Shown here one piece after another: positions 18 to 62,634 of a DNA stretch of 64,000 bases. The position numbers and the translations under genes are program-made. This stretch comes from Haematococcus lacustris (Eukaryota > Chlorophyta > Chlorophyceae > Chlamydomonadales > Haematococcaceae), in contig JASKMD010000014.1 of the NCBI GenBank assembly GCA_030144725.1, positions 7,652,284 through 7,716,283 on the forward strand, given 5' to 3'. Position 1 is the first letter of the stretch. The number at the start of each line of letters is the position of its first letter. Below the pieces are notes generated by a model. That model was not told the DNA's origin. It did no database searches and saw nothing but the letters and a program-made list of their open reading frames with translations.

Positions 18-587
18 ATGCTGGACGGGGGCAGTGACAGCTGCCTCATTTCCCATGAGTGTGCAGCCGCGCTGAACCTGCCCCTCACCCCTTGCAGCCG
101 TCGCTTGTCCACTGCGAGTGGTGCAGAGGCCTTAGCCACCCAGGTTGCCACCCTGCGCGTGAGTCTCAGCTATGGCACTCCCCATGCCATGGTGCACGAC
201 CTGGAGGCCATTGTCATGCCTCCTGGTAGCCCCCTTGCTTACGACCTGCTGCTTGGAGCCAACTTCCTCTCGCAGACCAAGGGCGTGTGCGATGTGTACG
301 ACCGGCAGTTCTCTTATTGCCCCCGGCTGCACAGCCATGGAGACGTCTCACTTACTGCCAGTCACTGGGCCCAAAGGCTGCCTTCCCCTCCTATACTCAG
401 CGCCCATGGGCAGCAGCCAGCTGCTTGTGGCCTGCACTGCCGTGTCCCACAGCCAGGTTCAGCCCTGTGCAACCAGCGGCACCGCCTCTGCCATGATTCA
501 CACCTCGCCTTTGGTGCATGCGCAAGTGGGGACACCTCTTGCAGCGTCTGGCACCACCACACCCAGCGCAGTCAGCCGTGGGGGTGA
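18..587 (+). CDS. Retropepsin-like aspartic protease segment of the Ty3 element
   Basis: This frame carries an aspartic-protease signature. A hydrophobic-Asp-Gly-Gly-Ser stretch (LDGGSDSCLIS) begins at about position 21, and the usual second half, a hydrophobic DLLLGANFL motif, lies near 244-270. These match the active-site and C-terminal strands of retropepsins, although the canonical D-T/S-G is D-G-G here. After about position 330 the protein-like character ends in this frame and the RT-bearing frame takes over, so a ribosomal frameshift, an unseen splice or a mutation must join them. The true start (gag or gag-pro) is upstream of the window; the ATG at 18 is only the first one visible. Confidence 0.6.
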   Translation: MLDGGSDSCLISHECAAALNLPLTPCSRRLSTASGAEALATQVATLRVSLSYGTPHAMVHDLEAIVMPPGSPLAYDLLLGANFLSQTKGVCDVYDRQFSYCPRLHSHGDVSLTASHWAQRLPSPPILSAHGQQPAACGLHCRVPQPGSALCNQRHRLCHDSHLAFGACASGDTSCSVWHHHTQRSQPWG

Positions 588-3500
588 CCTAGCAGCTGTA
601 GAGGGCGCCTTGAGCAGGGTGGCCGCCGGTGATGCACCCATACCAGCAGGATCAGGGGTGAAACCGGTGCGCAGCCCAGCCCAGCCAGTCACCCGCAGGG
701 GGGGAGGGGCAGCTGTCATTTCTGTCCCCTCCTCAGCACTAGACCCTGCAGCTCGGCGCATGTCTATGCCAACCAGCGCACCGCAGCCTTCAGCATCCCA
801 CCTGGCTGTGGGCACCGGTGCAGCCCGGCGCTCCGCCATCCCACTGACCACGGCCCCACCACCGCAAGTTCCTCCCATGCCTCCGCTGCGCGCATCCCCT
901 CCACCTACGCCGCAGCGCTCCACCAGGGAAGTGGCATGGGGGTCTCTCTCACCGCTGCGGTTGGTTCTCTCTCTCCTCTTCCTCTTCTGGCTGCCCTCCA
1001 TGGTGTCTTGCCTGCCGCCCCCTGTGCCGGGCATGTGCTCACCTGCCATCTCCTGCTCTGCCATCACCATGGTGCTGCCTGATGGTCCTGCTGTCAATCC
1101 CTCCCCACAACAATACACCCAGCTGCCCAATGGTGTGTTGTTGGCTCAGCATGCGGCTCTATCCCAACAGCAAGCACATCGCATGGCGGCTCTGGTTGCA
1201 GCTCATCCAGGTGCTTTTGCTCATTCTCTGAGTGACCTCACTGGTTACAAGGGCCCACGCGGTGCTTTTCGCATTGAGCTGTCCACCACAGATCCCATCA
1301 TCACCAAGCCCCGCCGCTATTCTGACCTGGAGCTGCAAGTGACGGACAAGAAGGTCAAGGAGCTGGAGGAGGCAGGCATCATCCAGCCCGTCACTGGCCC
1401 GTGCGACTATGCCTCGGCACCCACCCTGCCCATGAAGAAAGATGCCCAGGGGCAGTGGACAGACACCCGGTTCTGCATTGACTTCCGACGGCTCAACGAC
1501 GCCACCAAGTCTGACCGGTATGGGTTGCCTCTGCCAGAGGAGATGTTTGCCAGGGTGGGCAGCGCCAGGTGGTTCAGCAAGCTGGATATGCGCTCAGGGT
1601 TCTTGCAAATCCCTGTGCACCCTAATGACCAGCTCAAAACTGCGTTCTGGGCACGCAACCGCCTGTACTGCTACACTCGCATGCCGTTTGGGCTGAAAAA
1701 TGCCAGCGCTGAGTACCAACGTGTCATGGACGCAGCCATCACCAGCGCCAGCCTGTCCCATTGCTGCATGGCCTTCATTGATGATGTGCTTGTGTACAGT
1801 GACAGCTTTGAGGCACACTGTGAGCACGTGCAGGCCCTGCTGCAGATGTTGCAGACCATTGGCATGTTCGCGCACCCTGAGAAGACTATCCTGGCCGCTG
1901 ACCGTGTGGAATACCTCGGCCATGACGTCTCCGTCCATGGGCTTACCCCCACTCAGGCAAAGTGCCAGGCGCTGCGTGACATGCCTGCCCCCACTGATGT
2001 ATCCAGCCTTCGCACAGCCATGGGTGTGTTCAACTACTATCGCTGCTACATTCCTGACTTCAGCATCATTGCTGCCCCCATCACCTCTCTCACAAGGAAA
2101 GGGGTGGCGTGGTGTTGGGGTAGTGAGCAGCAGGCCGCCTACAGCACACTCAAAGACAGGATTTGCACTCCTGGCTTAGTGCTGCGCCGCTTTGACCCTG
2201 AGCGCCCCCTTGTCCTGCACACTGACTGGTCTCGGGAGGGCTGTGCGGGTATCTTAGGGCAGGTGGACACCAACGGGGATGAGTACATGGTGGCTTGCTG
2301 CAGCCGCAGCTGCAACGTGCATGAGCGCAACTATGCCAGCTACACGGGCGAGATGCTAGCTGTGGTGTGGGCTGTCAAAACCCTCCGCTTCTACCTTCAT
2401 GGCAGGCACTTTACCATTGTCACTGACCACCAGCCTTTGTCTTGGCTGATGTCTGGGCAACACCACTCTGGCCAGGTGGCCCGCTGGGCCATGCAGCTGC
2501 AAGAGTACGACTTTACCGTCAAACACCGTCCCGGGGTTACCCACCAGTATGCTGACTCCCTGTCACGCTTCCCCAGGCCCACCTGCGCGGATTCCACTGG
2601 CGCCTGCCTCGACCCTCCTCCTGCCCTTGCCTCTCTCATGCGTGGCGCTGCCACCACCAGCCCTCCTAACCTGCCCACACCTACCCTTTCAGCTGCCCTG
2701 GCCGCCATCACCTCTGACGACCTCCTGCTCGGCAACCAGGGAAGTGTGACAGATGCTTATCACCACGAATCCAACACACCCTCTTCCTATCCTTCCACCG
2801 CTTACCACACTCTCACTCACCGTGCCACCAGCTGGGTCCGAGCAGCTCAGCACATTCTCATTGCTACCTCCCCCGCCACAGCCCAGTTGGGAGTCACTTC
2901 TGGCTTACCTGACTCTTGCGCTGTGCGCATGCCACTTGCCATCAACACCACATGTGTGGCTTCCTCTTTCTTTCCGGCAGTGGCAGCAGAAGGGGTGGTG
3001 CTGCTTGAGCTGCAAGGGGGTCTTGGGGCTGGGTTAGAGATGCTGCTACGCAATGGTGTACACATCCTGCGCTACATCTCCTGTGATACATCTCCTTCCG
3101 GCCTGCATCTCATCCCCCACCGTCTTTCTCAGCTGTCAGCTACCTACCCTGGGCTGTTGCCCCCTGCTGCTTATGCCTCTACACTCACCTCTCTGCCCCA
3201 GGATGTGGGCACCATCACTTCCGCCGACCTGGTGCGTGCTGGAGCGCGCGGTCCACATCAGTGGCTGGTTGTGGCCGGGTGGGAGTGTCCGCACCTTCCC
3301 ACTCCTGGCAGCCTGGCTGGGCTGCATGGCCCGGTATCCAGCACCTTCCTTTCCACCATGCGGTTGGTGGGCTGCTTACAGCAGCTTCAACCCCTGCTAC
3401 GCCCTGGGTACGTCCTTGTCAACACAACTCACCAACACCACTCCCAAGCTTACCGCAGTCAGTTCCCAGCGGTCTGCAACAGCATTGGCACCCCACTTTG

Positions 3501-6259
3501 TTTGAATGCCCAGCTGGGTGCTGGCACCTGGTGGACCAACCTGTGCGATCCCAACCACTTCAGTGCTGTCCTGCACCATGCTCAGCCTCAGTCTGCTCAT
3601 TCTCTGGTTGACATTATCTCACCTGTCTCAGCTGTCCCCACTGCGCCCTTTGGGGGGAAAAGTGCTCTCCTCACTGCAGCAGGCAAACCTCGTGAGCCCA
3701 CCAAGGAGCGGCACGCTGTCACGGAGCGCTGCATGGACGCCACAACTGCAGGGAGTTTGTATGCTATCTCAGCTACTCTGCATCGTGCCAACCTGCTGCG
3801 TAACCATGCACATAACTGCCTCTCTCTCTGCACGGCCTCGCACGCCCTGGTTGTCGCTGTCGGGGGGGGTGCACAGCTGATACTCAGCTCTCACACCAGC
3901 ACCAACCAGACCTGCTCGCCTCTCCCAGCACCTGATCCAGTCCTGCCCACACCCGTAGCTGCGCAGCCAGCAGTTGTCATTGCCCAGCTTGCTGATGTTG
4001 CTGACACCGAGCGTGACATTCACGACGACACAGCCACAATGCAGTTGCTTCAGCACCACACCTTGCCTGCTGGGTTGCCGCATGCAGAGCAGCGTCGGGC
4101 ACAGCGTCGCGCACAGGCTTATGTCTGGGACAGCCACAAGCTGCTTAGGCGCATGGCAGACGGCAGCACTCGCATTGTCCCTGCTCCTGCTGAGCGCCCA
4201 CACTTAGTGTCCACCATGCACAACAACACTGGGCACTTTGGTGGCAGGCGCACGGCAGCTCTGCTGCAGCACACCTATTGGTGGCGTGGGTTAGCAGCTG
4301 ATGCTCAGGCTGTTGTGGCACGTTGCACCGCCTGTGACAGGGTCAAAGCTGCATTCAATGCTAAATCCCCTGAGTTGCACAGCCTACCCATTCGTGCCCT
4401 CTTCTACCGCTGGGGTGTAGACCTCTGTGGTCCTTTCATCCCCAGCCGCTCAGGCCACAAGTACATCATGGTCTGCATTGAGCATTTGTCTAAATGGGTC
4501 GAGATCATCCCCATCCCCAATAAGGAGGCAGCCACCACAGCCTCAGCTTTTGCGCATCACGTGCTAGGACGCTATGGTGCCTGTGCTGAAGTAGTCACTG
4601 ACGGGGGCACAGAGTTCCAGGGGGCCTTTGCAGAGTTGCTACAGCGCGCACTCATCGATCACAGAACCACCTCTGCCAACCACCCTCAGAGCAATGGGCT
4701 GTCTGAGCGATGTGTGCAAACTGTCAAGGCATGCCTGCGCAAGCACTGCACCAGCAACCGTGTCACTGACCAGTGGGATGATGCCCTGCCCATGATTGCT
4801 CTGGGGTACAGGTGTTCCACCCAGGAAAGCACCCGTATGACACCCTACGAGTTGCTGTTTGCGCGCAAGCCTGTGGTTCCCCCAGCCATAGCTGAGCGGG
4901 TGGAGCAGCCCATCAACTTTGACGACCCAGAGCTGGCTGCCGAGCTGGTGATGCACCGTGCAGCTGCTGTCACTGACAACATGGTCATTGCCATGGACAA
5001 CCAGGCCGTCGCTCAGCACCGGGACCAGCTGAGGTATGCCATGACTCGCTCCGGCAGCTACCAGCCAGCAGCCCGCTCCTTCAAACCAGGTGACTTTGTC
5101 TATCTCCGCCTGGCTGCCAAGCACAACATGCTGCAGCTAGAGGCACGCCCAGAGATCTATCGGGTGGTGGTAGTCAAGGACAGCGGGGTGGCAGTGCTCA
5201 CGGGCAAGTGTGGCACCCAGTTCAATGAGCACATCTCCAACCTATCTCCTTGCCACCTGCTTGACCAGGATGGCACTATTGATGTCGGCCTGGCACGCCC
5301 ACACATTGATCACCCGTGCGAAGTGTGCCGCTTCACGGGTGATGAGGCAGTCATGCTGCTGTGTGATGGCTGCGGCACTGGTTGGCACACCTACTGTCTC
5401 ACACCTGCTCTCCATGCCGTGCCTGAGGGTGATTGGCTCTGCCCGCGTTGCGTGGGGGCTGGAGTGACCTACGGTGAGGTTAAGGACAGGCAGCTGCTTG
5501 CTGCGCCAGCACCTCCACCGCAACAGGATCCTTTCCTCTCCAAGGCGGTGCTCAGCAAGATCAAGGCTGCCCGGGAGCTGCATGGTCGCGTGGTGCATTG
5601 CCCAGCCAGCAAGGCGGCGCCCGAGCGCTGGGGCGTCGTCACCTACAAGGGCGATGAGTGCAGGCCTAAGTATTTCCGCATCACATTCCAGGATGGCAGC
5701 ATCATTGACGACCTACAGCATGCTGTCCTGTTGCGCAAGGGTTGGCTGATGCCCCTGGGTTCAGAGTTGCCCAGGCACCTAGCAGCAAGCACCGTCACAG
5801 CCGCCACTCTGCCAGACCACTGGCTGCTCAGCAGCACTGCCGGCGTGCTCACAGCGCTTCATTGCCTCCTGCCTGGATCCTGGCACCCTAGTGTCGCAGC
5901 TGCCATTGCTCAGGGCTATCAGCTCATGCAACCAACCAACATCACACCTCAAGAGCTGCGTGTGGCAAGCACAGTGATCAACCTGGACCTCATGCACAGC
6001 TTGCTGGATCCATGCACCACCACACCCATCATCATATCAGGGCTTGAATTGCAGCCATTGTCAGCACAACTGCCTCTATCTCTTTCCCCTGCTGCCTACC
6101 GTGCACAGTTGCAGCAGCAGCCCATCGACGCCATCATCAGCAGCCCTGACCCTACTGTCCTGGATCTGCTGCTGCCGCTAGCGGTGATCTATGCTCATTC
6201 CCTGGTGTGTATGTTGGTGCCCCATGCCTACCTCTCAGATGCACCACCCGCTCGTTTCC
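172..6259 (+). CDS. Ty3/gypsy Pol polyprotein: RT, RNase H, methyltransferase-like, integrase, PHD finger
   Basis: Reverse transcriptase lies at about 1290-2060: LDMRSGFLQIP, then FIDDVLVYSD as the catalytic YxDD-type motif at 1774-1803, then YLGHDVS. RNase H follows at about 2210-2560 (LHTDWSREG, TGEMLAVVWA, TDHQPL). A linker at 2570-4000 contains a cytosine-methyltransferase-like block (2980-3570). Integrase has an HHCC zinc motif (about 4219-4335) and a DDE core: D in GVDLCGP (about 4420), D in VVTDGGTEF (about 4597), E in NGLSERCVQT (about 4702). A PHD finger with C-x2-C...C-x2-C...H...C-x2-C spacing follows at 5317-5450, then a small basic beta-rich domain (5600-5740) and an adenine-methyltransferase-like end (5880-6259) cut by the gap. 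The ATG at 172 is probably not used; expression is likely by frameshift from the protease frame. Confidence 0.93.
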
Positions 6260-20900: not shown

Positions 20901-21435
20901 CTGGAGGAGGAGGCAGCCATTGAGTCCCAGAAGCGGTGGGGAACACACAAGCAGCTAGTGGTGTTCTTTGGCAATGTTGGCATCGGGTGGGGGGTCAAGG
21001 CTGTGCTGCAGGCCTATCGCAATGTGGTGGAGAGGCCCAATAGCGGCAAGCCAACAGACAAGCTGCTGGGCAAGGTGGTGACAGTGGATGAGTTTTGCAC
21101 CAGCCGGGTCAGCTCAGCTGTGAACAGCCCCCAGCCATGTGAGGCGGGGCTGGACCGCAGCAAGCCCACCAGGCCACCAGGTGCGGGGCCTCTTGTGGTT
21201 CCCTTAGCTGGACCAGGCTACCCCTGGGGACATTGGCAGATGGGTGGACAGGGACTGCAACGCAGCCCTCAATCTCCAGCGGGTAGGGGAGGCCCAATGG
21301 CGCCCAGTAGAGCTGTGCTGGTGGCCACACCAAGCAAGGGCTCCTGCCCTAGGCAATGGGTACCCAGCAATGGGCTTCAACAACCTGCGAGACCGAGCAC
21401 CCAAGGCCCAGCCCCAGCAGCATGCAGCACAGTGA
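20901..21435 (+). pseudogene. Fanzor (eukaryotic TnpB-like) copy 1: terminal exon only, frameshifted
   Basis: After the acceptor GCATGCAG the exon reads LEEEAAIESQKRWGTHKQLVV (in parts), then VVFFGNVGIGWGVKAV and TVDEFCTSRVSSAVN. It matches the last exon of copy 4. The glutamate of VDEF (21090-21092) is the candidate alternative RuvC-II residue. Between about 21190 and 21240 the frame shifts. RuvC-III then appears at 21244-21300 as DRDCNAALNLQR, followed by the family tail WRPVELC...KGNGYPAMGF-like sequence and a TGA at 21433-21435. The RuvC-I exons are absent, so the copy is inactive as a nuclease. Two conserved hairpins follow the stop. Confidence 0.75.
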
Positions 21436-21525
21436 TGTGCACACTCGAAAGTCCTTAAGCTGCTGCTTACATCGAGCATGTGTTCACTGCCGACACCTAT
21501 CGCCCCACCCTCCTGAGGGTTTGGG
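21436..21525 (+). ncRNA. Candidate Fanzor guide-RNA scaffold (3' structured element), copy 1
   Basis: Hairpin A is TAAGC-TGCT-GCTTA (21456-21469), 20 nt after the stop. A degraded hairpin B follows (GCATG...CTGC, 21476-21490). Hairpin C is CCCT-CCTG-AGGG (21508-21519). Order and spacing match copies 2, 3 and 4, and sequence identity with copy 3 is obvious until just after hairpin C. That it is transcribed and used as a guide scaffold is inference. Confidence 0.4.
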
Positions 21526-53120: not shown

Positions 53121-54136
53121 TGCAGTGACCAGTGTTGCATGCAGTGATGCAGTTCAGCAGTGAAGCCTTGATGCAGTACTGCAGTGCTCACCACACGGCT
53201 GCAGCTGCTGTCATGGTCAGCACACCAGTGATGCTGGGGCACGCCAGCTGCTGGCTCCAGGGGGCTGCAGCTAGGTAGGCAGATGCTGTTTGTGCTTAAC
53301 CATGGTCATGGCCAGCACTGGAGGCCAGCATGGTAATGGAGGCTGCACCTGGACTGGTATTGGAGGCTGCGGCTGGACCTGGACCAGGCAGCAGTACCAG
53401 CTAGTTGTAAGAAACAGCTGCTATGCGGGCGCGAGGCTCACAGGGCAGCACACTCCCTCTGGCACACTGCATGAACCTGTGGAGTCAGACAATAACATAG
53501 TCCGCTCCTTGTTGAGGAACCATGTCCACATCCATGCACGACGTACTAGTGGGTGGCAATGCCAGTGGAGCACAGAACGATGGCAAGTGCCTGCCAGTAG
53601 AGTGCACAATGTTCCGATAGATACATGCACTTTAGGGCGCGTAGAAGCATGCATTACTTTACAACGGCACCCTTAACATTATTAGGGGAAAAGTGTAGAA
53701 GTCTCTAGCCGCGTCTCTAGGCTCGTCGTTTGCTGCAACTTTCGACTAGGTCTCAGTCGTTATTTTCCCGTAACAGCTTGGCCTCGGACATCATACCATA
53801 CGCAGTGCAGAAGTCCATGCCATATCCTTGCTCACACCCGCGATTCAAAAGTTTCAGATGTTCTACAGAGTGTGTGTGTGAGAGAGCGAGAGCATGCAAA
53901 GGGTAGAGCTCGAGCCCTCCTGGGTGACACCTAGGATAGGGACACAGTATGCTCAGTCACTGTATACTGTCACTACCTGTTGTCTCCCCAGGACTCGTGG
54001 TTGGCTATTGACTGCAGCTGCGTGTAAGTGATGTGAAGCGGTCGTGGTGATAAGAGGCACACTGTAGACGGCTCGCCTCCTGCTTGACTTGTTGAGTCAA
54101 CGCACCCTTCAACATCTGGCACGAACATACGCATTG
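53121..54136. other. Intergenic, nothing recognised
   Basis: This stretch lies between the helicase stop and Fanzor-like copy 2. A few GATGCAGT direct repeats follow the stop (53121-53180); there is a GT/GA microsatellite at about 53869-53895. No exon with acceptable splice sites was found. Confidence 0.45.
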
Positions 54137-54148
54137 CAGCCCCCTTGT

Positions 54149-54160
54149 CCCTCACTAGGG
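54149..54160 (-). repeat. Terminal hairpin CCCT-N4-AGGG, copy 2
   Basis: Minus strand: CCCTAGTGAGGG. It lies within the first 25 bp of the region shared with copy 4. A longer imperfect inverted repeat (TAGCCGGA...CCGGCTA, about 54170-54218) lies just inside. Confidence 0.5.
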
Positions 54161-54269
54161 CCTCCATTTTAGCCGGAACTAGCAGCCACTAGCAGCCACT
54201 AACTAGCTCCGGCTAAAATAGTGTTATTGGGCTGTGTGGAGTGTTTAGCCTACCACCTACAATATTGCC

Positions 54270-54355
54270 TGACCCGAGGGCTATGATGTAGAGTTGGCAT
54301 GACAAAATATGCACTAATTGAAAGCTGATGACAGCTCAAAGTGGGGGGGCACACA
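54270..54355 (-). ncRNA. Candidate Fanzor guide-RNA scaffold, copy 2
   Basis: Minus strand, starting 19 nt after the stop (54356-54358): hairpin A AGCTG-TCAT-CAGCT (54323-54336), hairpin B GCATA-TTTTGT-CATGC (54297-54312, one mismatch), then CCCTCGGG. The same order as the other three copies is the evidence; function is inferred. Confidence 0.4.
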
Positions 54356-55606
54356 CTACTGTGCCTCAGCAGGCTGCTGCTGCTGCTCCTGGGCCTTGGG
54401 GGGCTTGCCTCGCAGCCGCTTGTACCCCAGGCCAGGGTACTCCTTGCCCTTGGCTGGCAGAGCTCCCTGCTCTGGCCAGAAGCACAGCTCCAGTGGGCGC
54501 CACCTGCTCTCCCCAATGCGCTGCATGTTCAATGTTGCGTTGCAGTCCCTGTCCAGCCACCTGCCTGGCTGTGGTGCTGGCTTGCATGGAGTGTGCGCAT
54601 GGAGTGTGCGTCGATGGTGTTGGCGTCACCCGCCAGGTAGATGCTGCCCAGCTCCTGCAGCTTGGCCACCAGCGCCTGGTTGCTGGGGTCCTCAAAGGCT
54701 GGCATGAGCATGGGGTGGCGGTTGCGCACAAGGCGCCGCTGCAGCTGGTTGTAGCATGTCTTGAAGTTTGGGTTGGCGAAGAACTTGCAGAAGTCTTTCA
54801 GCTGCCTGAGCATCAGGGGGTCCTCGCAGTCAAGGGGCAAGGGAGGGCCAGTGGGTGCTGCGGGTGCCATGGCTGCCAGGCGGGCGCTGCAGCGCCTTTG
54901 GGGGGGTTGCACGACTGGCTCAGGTTCTGACTCTGAGTCTGACTCCGAGTCAGACTGTGGCTCTGGATCAGAGTCACAGTCTGACTCGGAGTCAGAGTCA
55001 GAGTCACACTCCATGCTGGCAGGCTGGGCAGGCTGGGCAGGCTGGGCAGGGGCCCGTGGGGGGAGTGGGGGTAGGGGGGGAGCATCAGGGGGTTGGGGAG
55101 GCTGCACGGCTGGAGGCTGAGGGGCGCTGGGGGAGCCTGGGGTAGGGTAGCCCACCAGGCAGGTGAGAAAGATGCGCAGTACAAACAGCGAAGCGATGAA
55201 GCGGAGCTGAGAGTGGATCTCAGCCCGTAGCCGGAGATGCTCCCGCAGCTTTCGCCGGGTCTTCTTGCAGCCGCGCAGCACTGCGCCCTCGGGGACCTTA
55301 ATCACCTGCGGCCAAGCACAATTAACAATTTGACTGGCCATTTTGACAAGCCAAGACACAAGGCGGGGTCAACACAAACAGTGCGGGGGCACATAAGGCG
55401 GGGCCGTCACCTGACGTCGGGTCGTGTTCCAACTATCACGGCGCGCCTGTCGTTGCTTGCCTTGGGCGGAACGAGAAACTGCGATGGAACCAACAGGAGC
55501 GACGGGTTATCTCACAGCGCGTAACTCACGTCTAGGGCTCACGTCACGGCTGGGGACACGAACCTTTATGTTTCTTGTCGCTACCCTTCCGCTTCTTCTT
55601 AGCCAT
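54356..55606 (-). pseudogene. Fanzor copy 2: N-terminal exons fused to the RuvC-III end
   Basis: Exon 1 (55564-55606) starts MAKKKRKGSDKKHK, a classical nuclear-localisation sequence. Exon 2 (55411-55478) continues SRSAQGKQRQARRDSW, and exon 3 (55305 downward) continues VIKVPEGAVLRGCKKTRRKL; all phases agree. After a Pro-rich and Asp/Ser-acidic linker and FCKFFANPNFKTCYNQLQRR, the gene is deleted to the last exon, which keeps DRDCNATLN and the family tail to a TAG at 54356-54358. RuvC-I and the VDEH glutamate are gone and the tail is out of frame. It cannot encode a nuclease but shows how the intact gene began. Confidence 0.8.
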
Positions 55607-55775
55607 CACGCGATGCGCAGTGCGACGGGCGGTGACCTTTTCAAGCAACTTGGGTTTCCCGTGAAAAATACACGGTTGTGTGAAAACACACAAGTGCTCT
55701 GTTACAGCCTTGACCAGGGAGATGGGCCAACTTCAGTGAATTGATCTACACAATCTTAACGCATACGCATTGCAG

Positions 55776-55927
55776 CACGGAGCTATACCAACCTCACACG
55801 CCCATAAGCTTTGCCCTGTTGCAATGTAGAGGATGCTCGGCACTAGGTTTTCTGCCACAGACTGGTACTGCCCCTGGCTTGGCGAGGAGCCTGCAGTGGG
55901 GCAGGTGCCGCAGTCTAGGCAGGATCA
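55776..55927. other. Short intergenic stretch
   Basis: No feature recognised. It is probably the 3' flank of the minus-strand membrane-protein gene. Confidence 0.35.
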
Positions 55928-58329
55928 TCACTGTGCCCTTAACACCGGTGTGCTGGCCGCAAGCACTGCCATGCCACACACCACTGCCCTGCCCGTCACT
56001 GCCACAGCAACGTAGGGCAGGATGCCACACGCAGCCGGCAGCAGCCAGCACACACACACCGCACTCGCTGCAGACCACGCCTGGCAGTACCCTGGCACAG
56101 CTGCAGCTGACAGCCGCTGCTGACTGTTACCCCCACAGCGACCAGTAGCATCCAATTGCGTTTGGCCACCCTCCCCCCAGCGGCAGCGCCCTCCCCAGGC
56201 ACCAGCCTGCTTCACCAGCCCCTGCTGCTGCTCAGGCACCGCCTGGCCACCCCCTGGGCAACCACTAGGCAGCAGGCACTGGCCACACAGCCCCTGGCGG
56301 TCAGGTGGCAGCCCAGGGGAGTGGGGCCCAGCCAGCCTACAGCCTGTGCCACCATCATGGTGCTGGCCATGGCCATGAGGTGCAGCGGGGAGGACATAAG
56401 GTGAGGGATGAGACCTGGCAGCGCTCTGGCGGCCCTGCCCCCTCCTCACCTCCTCACACTGCACTGCGCTGCACTGCTGGCGGCCCCAGGGGCTACTGCC
56501 CTGGCAGCCGGCTGCATAGGCTTGGCTGCTGCTCAACGGCTGTGCTGGGCAGGGCGGGTGCTGGCAAGGCTGCGTGGCTGGGCAGGCATGCCAGTGCTGC
56601 GCCGTGCTCCTGCTGCACGCTGGCTGCCGGGCTGGTGGCCGGGTGCTGCACTGAGGGCTGCAGCCAGCAGGTGGAGGAGGAAATGGATACTGGGAGGGGC
56701 TCATGCAGCCCCTAGCCCCGCCACCTGCACATGGAGTGAAGCTGCTGCGCTCACAGCTGGCAGCGGCTGCAAACACAACAGCTGGAGTGTTGGCCGGAGG
56801 GAAGGGAGAGACGCCTGCCTGGGCAAACTGCCGGCGCCCTGCCGTCTGCTGCCCTTCATAGTCCCTCCCAGCCGTGCAGCCAGGGCCCGCCAGGGCGGTG
56901 GGCTGAGCCGTTGCAAGGATCTTGAGCTGCTGCTTGGCACTTGCGGTTGCAGTGTCTGAGCTGTGCGGGGTGAGAGCTCTGCTGGGCAGCTGGCAGGAGG
57001 TGTCGGGGTGCAGGTGCAGCAACACGAGCCAGGCCACTCGCAGCAGCAGCCACAGCAGCATGGAGCCCGAGGTCAGGGCCAGGGCAGGCAGGCACAGGGC
57101 AGCAGGCATGAGCAAGCCCGTGAATCCTAGCCTCAGCAGGTCGTTCAATCGTGCCTGTGCTGCAATGTTCGGATAGTCAGCAGCAAGAGGAGGGCATGTG
57201 GCAGAGGCTGCTGCTGGGTTGCTGTGGGCTGGTGGAGGTGCAAGGCATGAGGGCGCGGCCTGGTGAACGGAAAGACGATGACCAGCTGCCCTGGTGCTGG
57301 CCCACAGCTGGGCAGGCGCGATGCCAAGGAAAGGCAGAGGGGCGAGCACTGTTGGGCTCGTGGGGGTGGCTGATGCTGGCCTGGCGGACTGCTGGTGCTG
57401 CCACAAGCGCAGAGTGCAGCGCCAGAGCCACACAGCCAGCAGGCAGCACCCGGGCAGGAACAGACCTGCACAGGGCATCGTGTAGAGGAGGGGCGAGAAT
57501 GCCAGAGAGAGAGGTGTTAGGACGTGTGATGCATGAGCTGGCCGCGAACACAAACTTCTTCACTGCTTGTGCAGCCACCAGAGGAGCCATCCAAGTGCCA
57601 CACTGGGGATGCGTGGAGCAGCCTTAGGAGGGTACCATGTCAGCTTCACCAGGCATGCTGTATAATTACAGGCAAGGCTTCAGTGGGACTAGACATGCCA
57701 GTACTGACCATAGCGTGTGACCATGCATGGCCACCTTGAGATCCACGCTGCCTGCATCGAGCCCCTGGCATATCCAGTGCTCCAAGGCTGGGCCCACCAG
57801 GGCAGCACCCAGTTGCTTGTCCCGCTGCTAACCAGGGCTGAGGTGGGAGATGGCAGGCCCACTCGTTGCAGTGCTTTGTAAAGCAGGCTGGTTCGTGGGT
57901 TGGCAAGGCTCTGTCGCTGTCTACACGTGAGGGCTATGCGTGTTGGGCCTGCCCAGCAGGCAGCTGCCAGTAGTGCTGCAGCTGTGATGATGTCGCCATA
58001 CATGTGCGTGGTCTGGCGGATGCTGACCTGCCATTGCTGGTCAATGGTATGTAACAAGTGTGCGCCTAGCTTGTGCCAGACTGATAAGAAGTCCAGAATG
58101 TGGGGCAGGATTGAGGAGACAGCATTGTTCAGAGCCTGCACACAAGGATGTGTGTGTGTGTGTGTTTTAGGTTGGAGTACATGACCGGTCATCTGAAGCT
58201 GAAGATTCGATGCGACACCTGAATGGGAGCCAGTAACTGGCTGAGCAAGTGGTTGGTGATGCGCTGCTCCGTTAACAACCTGTCGAGCCTCACGCAAAGC
58301 GACACATCACTGGGTAGGCGGCCGCTCAT
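55928..58329 (-). CDS. Predicted membrane protein of unknown function, multi-exon
   Basis: Exon 1 (58219-58329) reads MSGRLPSDVSLCVRLDRLLT and ends LSQLLAPIQ at GTGTCG. Exon 2 begins at 58135 (ALNNAVSSILPHILDFLSVW) in the same phase and includes HMYGDIITAAALLAAACWAG, then SLLYKALQRVGLPSPTSALV. Further down are MAPLVAAQAVKKFVFAAS (about 57590), hydrophobic CAGLFLPGCCLLAVWLW (about 57470), NDLLRLGFTGLLMPAAL with LLLRVAWLVLLHLHP (about 57160-57010), and several hydrophobic segments at 56400-55960. Alternating frames imply more introns than I could fix. The gene has no family I recognise; several transmembrane helices are likely. The end at 55928 is the stop of the last long frame and is uncertain. 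Confidence 0.45.
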
Positions 58330-58579
58330 TTTGCAATTGACTGGCTCCTAGCCTCGTGACGGCACTCCTGGTCAACGCTGGTTTGACCATGCCTAGATGT
58401 TGATGTTTAAAAAGTGGAAATCATGAACCAATCGCAGGTTGGTCAAGTGCCATAGTCCAGCCTTTACCTAGCAGCTGAGTATCATCGCATAGTTCCCCTA
58501 CTAGGCGATGCGTTATCTGAAATCCGAACTGTCGCTACCTACACCAAAAACAGCCGGCACCAATGCCTAATTTTCTACC
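58330..58579. other. Intergenic, probable promoter of the membrane-protein gene
   Basis: This stretch is AT-richer, upstream of the ATG at 58327-58329, and ends where copy 3 similarity starts. No motif could be assigned. Confidence 0.35.
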
Positions 58580-58672
58580 CACACCCCCTTACGAGGGTGG
58601 GGCGATGGGTGTTGGCATGAAAGACATGCTCCAACGTAAGCAACAGCTTAAGCATTGCCTGGTGCACACATG
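58580..58672 (-). ncRNA. Candidate Fanzor guide-RNA scaffold, copy 3
   Basis: This is the clearest version. On the minus strand, 22 nt after the stop (58673-58675): hairpin A TAAGC-TGTT-GCTTA (58637-58650), hairpin B GCATG-TCTTT-CATGC (58615-58629), hairpin C CCCT-CGTA-AGGG (58586-58597). The stretch is clearly homologous to 21436-21525 and diverges just beyond hairpin C. Confidence 0.45.
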
Positions 58673-58845
58673 CTACTGTGCTACAGGCAGCTGGGCTTGG
58701 GCCTTGGGTGCTCGGTCTCGCAGCTTCTTGAAGCCCAATGCTGGGTACTCCTTGCCCTTGGCAGGAGCCGCTCCTCGGTGTTGCCACCTGCACAGCTCCA
58801 GTGGGCGCCACTTGCTCTCCCCTGCCCGCTGGAGATTGAGGGCCA
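58673..58845 (-). pseudogene. Fanzor copy 3: RuvC-III tail only
   Basis: Minus-strand sequence from about 58845 reads LALNLQRAGESKWRPLELC, then KGKEYPALGFKKLRDRAPK and a TAG at 58673-58675. It breaks inside the RuvC-III motif: DRDCNA is missing before ALN. Tail and 3' sequence group it with copy 1, not with copies 2 and 4. Confidence 0.7.
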
Positions 58846-59290
58846 GCCAGCAGCTCACTACCATGACAGTGGCATTAGCACAGCCACAATGCAGACTCAA
58901 ACCTGCCAGGAGGGCAACATCAAGCAGGAGCTGGCCACCTTGGCCACCCCCATCAGCATCAGCTGGAAGGACTATCAAAAGCACCTGAAAGCAGTGCTGG
59001 AGGTGTGTGACCCATGTGGGAGGGGAGTCTCCAGCCATGTTGCACCAACCAGAGGTTCCGGCTGTACGGCGGCACATGATGACAGCCAGCTCATGAGCAC
59101 CTGGCATGCCTAAATCAGCATCTCAATATCTATGATCCCTTCGCAAGTTTAGCAAGTTTTCAGCAAGTTCTATGATCCCTTCAGCAAGTTTTTCTCACCA
59201 TGGTCAAATTCTATATGCTTCTTTAAATTTATCCGGTACTCAAGATCTTGGCCCAATAGCTAATTAGGGCTAATATTTGCACAAGCCGAC
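58846..59290 (+). other. Possible isolated exon; AT-richer flank of copy 4
   Basis: On the plus strand 58850-59005 could encode TCQEGNIKQELATLATPISI and SWKDYQKHLKAVLEVCDPCG, a plausible helical exon before a GTGTGT donor-like site, but no partner exons were found. From 59110 the sequence is AT-rich with a direct repeat (TATGATCCCTTC.GCAAGTTT at about 59130 and 59170). Confidence 0.3.
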
Positions 59291-59302
59291 CAGCCCCCTT
59301 GT

Positions 59303-59314
59303 CCCTCACTAGGG
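59303..59314 (-). repeat. Terminal hairpin CCCT-N4-AGGG, copy 4
   Basis: Minus strand: CCCTAGTGAGGG, identical to copy 2. An imperfect inverted repeat (AGCCGGA...CCGGCTA, about 59324-59369) lies just inside. Confidence 0.5.
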
Positions 59315-59424
59315 CCTCCATTTGAGCCGGAACTAGCGGCCACTAGCAGCCACTAACTAGCTCCGGCTAAAGTAGTGTTATTGGGCTGTGTGGAGTGTTG
59401 AGCCTACCACCTACAATATTGCCT

Positions 59425-59509
59425 GACCCGAGGGCTATGATGTAGAGTTGGCATGACAAAACATGCACTAATTGAAAGCTGATGACAGCTCAAAGTGGGG
59501 GGGCACACA
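59425..59509 (-). ncRNA. Candidate Fanzor guide-RNA scaffold, copy 4
   Basis: Minus strand, 19 nt after the stop (59510-59512): hairpin A AGCTG-TCAT-CAGCT (59477-59490), hairpin B GCATG-TTTTGT-CATGC (59451-59466, perfect), then CCCTCGGG (59427-59434). The order and spacing match copies 1 and 3 although hairpin A's stem sequence differs. Confidence 0.45.
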
Positions 59510-62500
59510 CTACTGTGCCTCAGCAGGCTGCTGCTGCTGGGTCTTGGGTGGCTTGTCTCGCAGCCGCTTGTACCCCAGGCCAGGGTACTCCTTGCCCTTG
59601 GCTGGCAGAGCTCCCTGGTCTGGCCAGAAGCACAGCTCCAGTGGGCGCCACCTGCTCTCCCCAATGCGCTGCATGTTCAGAGCTGCATTGCAGTCCCTGT
59701 CCAGCCACCTGCCTGGCTGTGGTGCTGGCTTTGCTTTGGCAGCCTTGCCCTTGCCCTTGGTGGGCTCAGCTGCCCCTGGCTCAGCCTTGGTGCGCTTGCT
59801 GCGCTTGGCTGGTTGGGGTGTGCTGGGCCCTGGCTCTGAGGCTGCTGCCTGTGTTGCTTCCTGGCTGCTGTGGGGGGCCTGTGGGGGCCTGCGGGGGGCC
59901 ACTACCGGGCACCACACCAGGCCCCGCACTGGCTGGCCACGCTCCTGGCTCCAGGCTGGGCGCACTAAGCGGTGGTGCACCTGCCCTGCTGGGGGCCTCC
60001 AGCCTGCAGGCCTGGTGGCACTGAGTGTGTTCAACTCCACCTCACAGGGCTGCTTGCCATTCACTGCTGAGCTGACCCGGCTGGTGCGGTGCTCATCGAC
60101 AAGCACCACCCTGCCCCCATCCTGGTCTTTGCCCCTGGGCCTGCACACCACCTTGCGGCAGGCACGCAGCACCGCATCAGCACCCCAGCCTCCCCTGGTG
60201 CCAATGCTAGCTGCTCCAAAGAACACCACCAGCTGCTTGGCACACCCATGGCCCTTCATGCACAACTCCTCCATGCCCTCCTCCAACTGCAGCCATGCAC
60301 ACAAGGCACACACATGGTGGCTGACATGATGGCACACAGTTAGGCATGGCACAGTCAAGTACTTTTTCGTTTCGTCACCTCTCAGTCCCTTTCCCTCCCT
60401 CCCTCCCACCTACCCACCCACCCACCCTCACCTTGTTAAAGAACTGCTCCAGCGCCCGGTCCTGGGCTCCGTACAGCCTCAGCCGCTGCCGTGCCCACTT
60501 GGGGTCCAGGTACACCTCCCACACCGCATCCCAGGTGGCCAGGGTGACGGTGATGTGCTTCAGGTTGGCCTCCAGGGAGGTGCCGGCTGAGCTTGCTGCT
60601 GCCAGGTGCTGGAGGTGGGGCCTGATCGGTGCTAGCCACCGCTCTGTGTCACGGCGGGCATTGTTTAGGCCGCTGGCATGCTTCACCTCGCCCTTGGTCA
60701 GCTTCCACTGGCGCAGCTGGTCTGCCTTGAGCTGGCCTGTTGCTGGATCCCACACCCCTGACGCTGCGCTGACTGCCTGGGTGACGCCGGGGTCGATGCC
60801 CACCCCAATCTGTGTGTCTGGGTCAAACACAAACTCACGCACCTCAGCTATCCCCCTGCCTATGTGGGGGAGCCCCACCGCATGAGCCGCTGCTGCTGCT
60901 GCACTTGGGCGGCTGCTGGTGCTGGTGCTGCTGGCAGCTGGAGGTGGTGGGGCTGGAGGAGGGGGAAGGGGGCGCGTGTAGTGCACGCACACGCTGACAC
61001 CATCGGTGTCCACCAACCTCTCGAAAAGAAACTCCTTGTTGCGAAGCTTGTTTGTGTTGAACCACCTGGCCCAGTGATGGCTCAGTGTTGGCACTGAGGT
61101 GAATGCCGCCCGGGTTTCCTTGGTCAGGCCCAGCTGCCTGCACACCCCATGCAGCACCCTGCTGTCCACCTTGATGAAGTGCACCCCCACCCTGGCCATG
61201 GGGGTGAGGGTGAAGGGGGGTGGGCAGGTCAGGGTCCGGGGACCAACCCCACGCCTCTTGCCGCGCTTTGGCTGCCCTGGTGCGGGTGGGGTGTGGGGCT
61301 GCTGCCACCGCTCTAGCCACCCGCACACATGCACTGCATGGCGCATGCGGCAGGGCAGGGGCAGGGTGTCCTGCAGGGAGCCTTCCTTCTTCATGCCCAG
61401 TAGGCGACGGTGCTTGTTGGCCTCCTCTATCAAGTCCGCCACATGGCCCTTGTCCAGGGTGGCGGCTTTCAGCTCCAAGCTGTGGGCGTTGATGCCATAC
61501 CCACACGCCATCCTGATGAACAGCTGCGCCTCCTCCCCGCTCCAGCCTAGCTTGGCCCTGGCTGCCTTGGCGTACAGCTTGACAATGCGCTCTGCAGGTC
61601 AGGTCAGGTCAGGTATCAGGTCAGGTCAGGTCAGGTATAAGGTCAGGTATCAGGTCAGGTATCAGGTCAGGTCAGGTCAGGTATAAGGTCAGGTATCAGG
61701 TCAGGTATCAGGTCAGGTCTAGGTCAGGTCAGGTCAGGTATCAGGTCATGTCAGGTCAGGTATAAGGTCAGGTCCAGGTCCAGGTCCAGGTCTAGTCACC
61801 ATCATAACTTGCCTGGGTTGGAGTAGTGCTGTCGCATGGCCACCGCCAGCTGCATGGAGTGTGCGTCGATGGTGTTGTGGAAACCCGTCAGTTTGATGCT
61901 GCCCAGCTCCTGCAGCTTGGCCAGCAGTGCCTGGTTGCTGGGGTCCTCAAAGGCTGGCATGAGCATGGGGTGGCGGTTGCGCACAAGGCGCCGCTGCAGC
62001 TGGTTGTAGCATGTCTTGAAGTTTGGATTGGCGAAGAACTTGCAGAAGTCCTTCAGCTGCCTGAGCATCAGGGGGTCCTCGCAGTCAAGGGGCAAGGGAG
62101 GGCCAGTGGGTGCTGCGGGTGCCATGGCTGCCAGGCGGGCGCTGCAGCGCCTTTGGGGGGGTTGCACGACTGGCTCAGGTTCTGACTCTGACTCTGACTC
62201 CGAGTCAGACTGTGGCTCTGGATCAGAGTCACAGTCTGACTCGGAGTCGGAGTCAGAGTCAGAGTCACACTCCATGCTGGCAGGCTGGGCAGGCTGGGCA
62301 GGCTGGGCAGGGGCCCGTGGGGGGAGTGGGGGTAGGGGGGGAGCATCAGGGGGTTGGGGAGGCTGCACGGCTGGAGGCTGAGGGGCGCTGGGGGAGCCTG
62401 GGGTAGGGTAGCCAACCAGGCAGGTGAGAAAGATGCGCAGTACAAACAGCGAAGCGATAAAGCGGAGCTGAGAGTGGATCTCAGCCCGTAGCCGGAGATG

Positions 62501-62566
62501 CTCCCGCAGCTTTCGCCGGGTCTTCTTGCAGCCGCGCAGCACTGCGCCCTCGGGGACCTTGATAAC
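59510..62566 (-). CDS. Fanzor (eukaryotic TnpB-like RNA-guided nuclease) copy 4, lacking its first exons
   Basis: Three phase-consistent exons (61813-62566, 60432-61591, 59510-60286) give about 896 codons. The first has VIKVPEGAVLRGCKKTRRKL, a Pro-rich and a Ser/Asp-acidic linker, and CKFFANPNFKTCYNQLQRR. The second has IVKLYAKAARAKLGW and RuvC-I as VGIDPGVTQAV (Asp at 60792-60794). The third has LVVFFGAASIG, then VDEHRTSRVSSAVNG (Glu at 60092-60094), a basic KRSKRTKAE stretch, and RuvC-III DRDCNAALN (59693-59701). Fanzors are nuclear, RNA-guided DNA nucleases. The usual CxxC zinc ribbon is degraded (VSSAV, WCPVV). The first intron is GC-AG and full of AGGTC repeats. The N-terminal NLS exons seen in copy 2 are missing, so this copy is probably inactive unless a new 5' exon was captured. 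Confidence 0.8.
61599..61797. repeat. AGGTC-based intronic minisatellite in copy 4
   Basis: Units of CAGGTCAGGTAT and TAAGGTCAGGTC fill the GC-AG intron 61592-61812 of the Fanzor gene. Copy 2 lacks this region because of its deletion. Confidence 0.9.
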
Positions 62567-62634
62567 CTGCAGCCAAGCACAATTAACATTTTGACAGGCC
62601 ATTTTGACAAGCCAAGACACAAGGCGGGGTCAAG

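Follow-up and report, generated by a model that had tools for sequence, protein, structure and literature searches.

The window, a 64,000-nucleotide (nt) stretch from contig C40 of the green alga Haematococcus lacustris (assembly size 308 Mb), contained four tails that each followed the stop codon of a Fanzor-like coding end. Judged from their sequence, the tails represent the non-coding 3' termini of a Helitron2-like transposon that is present in high copy number and bears a Fanzor1-like nuclease gene. A block of each tail, at about +20 to +68 after the stop, was non-coding and alignable in families A, B, C and D of the element, both flanks being not or far less alignable. The location of the block, its conservation, its copy number, and the slow arms and fast loop of its hairpin B were observed directly. 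The chances are about even that the block forms part of the scaffold of a Fanzor omegaRNA.

Conservation and copy number of the block

The block had a consensus of about 50 nt (TRAGCTG..GCTTACA.TTAG.GCATG-loop-CATGCCAA), and as a sequence it exceeded chance by its number of genome matches: GCATGN{3,6}CATGCCAA was matched exactly 3,508 + 3,667 = 7,175 times, versus 1 + 1 = 2 times for the reversed pattern. Sixty of 100 listed pattern places were sampled (20/25 on contig C1 and 40/75 on contig C2, the latter picked mostly for unusual loops), and some of them were near-duplicates of one another. A Fanzor coding end was directly upstream at 44/60 (15/20 on C1, 29/40 on C2). Among the remaining five on C1, L151, L152, L155 and L158 carried the block without the coding end and L149 was unrelated; seven of the remaining 11 on C2 were unrelated by inspection. 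The coding end was upstream in 44 of the 52 sampled places that, by inspection, carried the block. Both arms of hairpin B were intact in 76 of 91 stretches anchored on the coding end, and one of the 15 misses (L004) was not a tail.

Rates of change were taken from a tree of 44 tails. Changes per column were 12.25 in the four columns upstream of the block, 1.6 and 2.6 in the arms of hairpin B and 7.4 in its loop, the arms being approximately 3-5 times slower than the loop. The CCAA columns had 2.0 changes and the next columns 6.5. Hairpin B behaves as a stem with a free loop, or as a split binding site. A second slow box, GGTCAGGC, lay downstream of hairpin C in families A and D, at columns 79-85 of the alignment of the 44 tails (A4). 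The GGC of this box is complementary to the GCC of CATGCC, and this was the only pairing that RNAalifold found in family D. Fourfold sites were rejected as a neutral yardstick, being too few and with codon bias judged too strong (identical at 14/17 for A-B, 18/18 for B-C and 12/14 for A-C).

Genome DNA searches scored the best 40 of 294-5,055 candidates, and the copies were biased to close relatives. The tail set was thinned at 88% from 128 stretches to 45, of which 44 entered A4; a second alignment (A3) held 24 tails (23 of family D, and L038), with L123 left out of both. A 92-row set was thinned at 93% from 160 stretches (150 distinct), comprising 110 tails with exact GCATG and those 50 of the 60 sampled places that remained once 10 unrelated or truncated ones had been removed. 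This set was biased for hairpin B, and a 34-row set was chosen from it by pattern.

The element, its gene and its families

A whole element was present at locus L104 as a head-to-tail unit of 3,225 bp. It comprised, in order, an N-terminal MAKKKRKG stretch that was recognised in the DNA by eye, an exon with the RuvC-I-like GIDPG, the C-terminal exon, in which DEHRTS and LDRDCNAALN occurred, then the tail and finally the right end GGGACAAGGGGGCTG. The best 120 of 1,248 matches to the open reading frame (ORF) of window copy 4 were all named Haematococcus lacustris. The Fanzor/TnpB motif D-X(125,275)-[TS]-[TS] was found in three of four proteins, with GIDPG-to-TS gaps of 187 (P0015), 138 (P0020) and 187 (P0022) residues; the search string was not present in P0026. 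A C4 zinc finger followed by X(5,50)-RD was not found in P0015, P0020 or P0022, in which the stretch from TS to RD contained only 2, 2 and 3 cysteines, respectively; the last cysteine of P0015 was 66 residues from RD, and the RD (DRD) motif itself was present. The zinc finger of the predicted Fanzor-like protein is degenerate.

The PF07282 profile (Cas12f1-like TNB) scored 14.7 bits with the window ORF vs a curated cut-off of 26.3, was weak in 9/16 homologues at E up to 0.1 (best E 2e-4), had one weak match in a profile search of the genome, and was a precomputed annotation of P0003 and P0092 among the 120 listed proteins. No Protein Data Bank (PDB) chain, solved Fanzors included, matched the Haematococcus proteins by sequence, and the AlphaFold model of P0020 was too poor for a fold search (mean predicted local distance difference test score 52.3). 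The gene is called Fanzor1-like because its RuvC-like motifs and their spacing fit, PF07282 is weakly present, and Chlamydomonas offers a precedent of Fanzor1 in Helitron2. In P0003 and P0092 the Fanzor-like C-terminal domain occurred two or three times in series; these are probably gene models fused across adjacent copies.

Two Helitron2 traits were observed. A terminal hairpin followed by (G)CTG closed the right ends of families A, B and D (by inspection), and the 3' end was kept in 5'-truncated copies, window copies 1 and 3 being such remnants. On contig C476 (7490464-7510855), seven 100% identical copies of the 96-bp right end of family A lay head-to-tail, at four intervals of 3,225 bp and two of 3,698 bp. 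Such a row amounts to tandem arrays of the complete element, an outcome that rolling-circle copying could produce.

At least four families were distinguished: A (window copies 2 and 4), B (copy 3), C (copy 1) and D (outside the window). Copies within one family were alike up to a sharp right end, at about stop+220 in A, about stop+191 in B and roughly stop+150 in D (by eye, the computed ends scattering). Families A and B were alike only to about stop+64-68, and C and B mostly to about +90; A and D had further downstream sequence in common. At L109, L125 and L141, a family-D tail was followed by a family-B-like tail within about 150 nt; these are composite or nested elements.

Pairing, covariation and competing readings

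The initial annotation had placed four stop codons, and these were located where it had them (stop-adjacent strings 21424-21435 on the forward strand, and 54356-54365, 58673-58684 and 59510-59519 on the reverse strand). Its spacing also stood: a perfect 5-bp hairpin A began at base 20-23 after the stop in 4/4 copies. Hairpin B was a perfect 5-bp stem in copies 3 and 4, as described, and was broken in copies 1 and 2 (GCATG/ACTGC and GCATA/CATGC). The CCC..GGG hairpin (hairpin C) had a stem of at least 5 bp in copies 1 and 3; only 2-3 pairs were possible in copies 2 and 4 (CCCTCGGG). The assertion that hairpin A kept one fold with different sequences did not survive alignment, in which one TRAGC...GCTTA was found in one register in 4/4 copies. 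The supposed two sequences were discarded: copies 2 and 4 just have four extra loop bases, which extend the stem by TG/CA. Hairpins alone were not beyond chance. Perfect 5-bp stems with loops of 3-9 nt occurred at 18.4/kb on one strand of the window, and tandem pairs at 9.2/kb.

A constrained non-coding block sits at the omegaRNA position in a Fanzor1-like element, and a scaffold is therefore the simplest reading. It rests on location and constraint, without covariation. The constraint on the block would reflect its part in the scaffold. The RNA would begin close to the coding end or within it, and the Fanzor protein would bind it; from there it would extend in the direction of the element's right end (some 150-220 nt beyond the stop in families D, B and A) and have flanking DNA as its guide. 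The stems would form in this RNA. The argument from location held up, the block following a Fanzor1-like coding end; the omegaRNAs of Fanzors described so far originate between stop and right end or overlap the coding end (PMC10432273). Window copy 2, which retained both end regions and the tail despite its lost interior, also speaks for a scaffold, in the manner of the 'ghost' elements of PMC10432273.

A scaffold is opposed by most of the results on pairing. Folding z-scores of seven tails were only -0.12 to -2.21 (-0.68, -0.12, -1.96 and -0.69 for window copies 1-4; -2.21, -0.35 and -1.99 for L113, L107 and L115). Hairpin A was present, whole or partial, in 6/7 single-sequence folds, and hairpin B as drawn in 1/7 (copy 4). 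Because hairpin B was so rare in the folds, a scaffold was held slightly less probable and its rivals slightly more so. RNAalifold gave three pairs for the 24 family-D tails of A3 (-1.0 kcal/mol), none in hairpins A, B or C, and zero pairs for the 44 tails of all families. In the 24 tails, 77.1% of cells were paired in the named structure vs 77.0% in shuffles, and three pairs were changed on both sides vs 5.4 expected. Slid controls had 25-50% of cells paired, their lower pairing being expected because the structure was read from the same sequences, and 5-10 pairs changed on both sides, above the structure itself. With a tree-aware null, no column pair reached E < 0.05 (best E 1.66 on 34 rows, 5.83 on 92 rows). 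No Rfam family was found at gathering score; at E up to 1, the 18 matches in 53900-60500 were all microRNA (miRNA) families below cut-off, mostly over a self-complementary coding repeat. The arms and loop of hairpin A differed little in rate: 6.6 and 6.2 vs 4.6 changes per column in the 44 tails as a 5-bp stem, and about 3.8 vs 5.0 when taken as the inner 5 bp of a 7-bp stem (families A and D). On contig C1, the tails L148 and L154 were without the 3' arm of hairpin A, with hairpin B and the rest intact. The block also ended about 100-155 nt before the right end, and copies of one family stayed alike beyond it. In SpuFz1, by contrast, a scaffold of 75 nt extends as far as the right inverted repeat, and a guide of 14-15 nt lies outside the element (Saito et al. 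2023, PMC10432273). One possibility is a long scaffold that continues to the right end, in keeping with the reported variation in omegaRNA length (PMC11423790); the other is that the block has a different role.

The initial annotation had further proposed that pairing is kept while sequence diverges; RNAalifold, pair counts and the tree-aware covariation test all gave this no support. The check for covariation across many copies gave nothing significant, which by the initial annotation's own refutation rule counts against the proposal for hairpin A; hairpin B was too invariant to tell. Short palindromes conserved downstream of a gene do not amount to covariation, and taking them for it is a tempting error that is corrected here. 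The power of the test was moderate for hairpin A and almost nil for hairpin B. With planted helices, power per pair was 0.26-0.53 on 92 rows and 0.09-0.88 on 34 rows at six changes per pair (as in hairpin A), and 0.05-0.15 and 0.03-0.08, respectively, at two changes per pair (as in hairpin B), the lower figure of each range being for compensation on internal branches only; approximately 70% of the tree length was on terminal branches. Support for structure is indirect and comes from the 1.6 and 2.6 vs 7.4 changes per column of hairpin B.

Three other explanations share parts of this evidence. The block may serve the Fanzor gene as a 3'-untranslated-region (3'-UTR) or mRNA-processing element, a protein-bound stem or bipartite RNA motif with no guide-RNA role, and this is rather unlikely, though to be taken seriously: the block lies immediately 3' of the stop and well away from the end of the element, and slow arms with a fast loop suit a protein-bound stem-loop or split motif, but the block was retained in the interior-deleted copy 2, where little of the gene is left. 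A DNA signal for transposition or rolling-circle replication, with the near-palindrome GCATG..CATGC as a binding site, is unlikely. Helitron2 elements have end hairpins and over-represented 3' ends among their copies (PMC3627910), the block is within the commonly retained 3' part, the arms of hairpin B are near invariant, and that hairpin is rare in predicted RNA folds (1/7); such a signal fits less well with the existence of a distinct, CTG-ending terminal hairpin at the right ends of families A, B and D, and with the Fanzor coding end upstream of 44/52 sampled blocks. That the block has no function and is inherited sequence that merely aligns is quite improbable: 1-3 vs 7-12 changes per column within 50 nt are unexplained by plain inheritance, even though the copies are related, covariation was not found, and a tree length mostly on terminal branches is as in copies decaying after insertion.

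A variant of the scaffold reading has the scaffold end at CATGCCAA, where families A and B diverge, with the family-specific sequence as a guide fixed inside the transposon; this is very improbable, and families A and D having the further box GGTCAGGC in common downstream argues against it. That such a fixed guide would direct the nuclease to copies of the element itself or of its relatives, and not to the insertion site, is likewise a very slim prospect.

Window features and known systems

Coordinates of the window features are given in Table 1. The N-terminal part of the element has a self-complementary coding repeat rich in Ser, Asp and Glu (54928-55006 and 62183-62263), and sub-threshold miRNA matches fell on both strands of the repeat at 54928-55006.

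Table 1. Features of the four element copies in the window (MFE, minimum free energy).
Feature	Position	Strand	Basis
Fanzor-like C-terminal coding remnant, copy 1	20901..21405	+	tblastn, pieces at 55% and 63% identity
Hairpin A, copy 1 (family C), TAAGC-TGCT-GCTTA	21456..21469	+	direct match
Hairpin B, copy 1, broken (GCATG/ACTGC)	21476..21490	+	direct match
Hairpin C, copy 1	21504..21525	+	direct match
Copy 2, interior-deleted element, unit 22-1127 and 2756-3225	54137..55697	-	blastn vs L104 unit; right end
Hairpin A, copy 2 (family A)	54322..54338	-	direct match
Hairpin B, copy 2, one arm broken (GCATA/CATGC)	54297..54312	-	direct match
Fanzor-like coding 3' end, copy 3 (family B, truncated), stop 58673	58673..58855	-	tblastn of C-terminal exon 58855-58691, 69% identity
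Hairpin A, copy 3, TAAGC-TGTT-GCTTA	58637..58650	-	direct match
Hairpin B, copy 3, GCATG-TCTTT-CATGC then CAAC	58615..58629	-	direct match; absent from MFE fold of this copy
Hairpin C, copy 3, CCCCACCC..GGG(G)TGTGGG	58578..58602	-	direct match; present in MFE fold
Terminal hairpin and family-B right end, about stop+191	58482..58511	-	sequence common to copies stops, flanks differ
Copy 4, nearly complete Fanzor-bearing element, unit 352-3225 in pieces	59291..62633	-	blastn and tblastn vs L104 unit
RuvC-I exon, copy 4	60854-60432	-	tblastn
C-terminal exon, copy 4	60286-59540	-	tblastn
Hairpin A, copy 4 (family A), TGAGCTG-TCAT-CAGCTT	59476..59492	-	direct match
Hairpin B, copy 4, GCATG-TTTTGT-CATGC	59451..59466	-	direct match; present in MFE fold
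Family-A right end, copy 4, ..CCCTAGTGAGGGACAAGGGGGCTG then boundary, about stop+220	59291..59316	-	boundary common to many copies, flanks unrelated

RNA-guided endonucleases of eukaryotes and of their viruses were the subject of a 2023 paper that reportedly includes a Chlamydomonas enzyme. Both the occurrence of Fanzor elements in green algae and the existence of 3' guide RNAs of Fanzors have been described before, and the general surprise is low. If the block is omegaRNA, the genome would offer natural scaffold variants of a single algal Fanzor by the thousand, spread over at least four families, and the variants would help locate the positions that an algal Fanzor RNA needs.

In Chlamydomonas reinhardtii, CRe-1, CRe-2 and CRe-3 are Fanzor1 genes in non-autonomous Helitron2 (Bao and Jurka 2013, PMC3627910). 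The present element resembles them in its green-algal host, intron-containing Fanzor1-type gene, end hairpins, and frequent 5' truncation or interior deletion with the 3' end retained. It differs in species and sequence, and the excerpts of PMC3627910 were not found to describe an RNA or a conserved 3' block. In Auxenochlorella, as here, a Fanzor-bearing element is abundant, being the most abundant repeat there; unlike here, it is called uncharacterised, and a tail or guide RNA was not found in the excerpts of PMC12636532. Among the open-access papers searched, that source was also the only one to name both Haematococcus and Fanzor, and no description of the present element was found in its excerpts.

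Ghost copies of SpuFz1 retain the omegaRNA region (PMC10432273), as the interior-deleted copy 2 retains the candidate region here. By sequence, the Haematococcus proteins have no match among the solved chains, in which they differ from GtFz1 and PpFz1. The length of omegaRNA varies between Fanzors (Xu et al. 2024, PMC11423790), and in the omegaRNAs of GtFz1 and PpFz1 the scaffold past stem-loop 1 varies between Fanzors in both length and structure; because of this variation, weak overall conservation in the present tails would not be odd.
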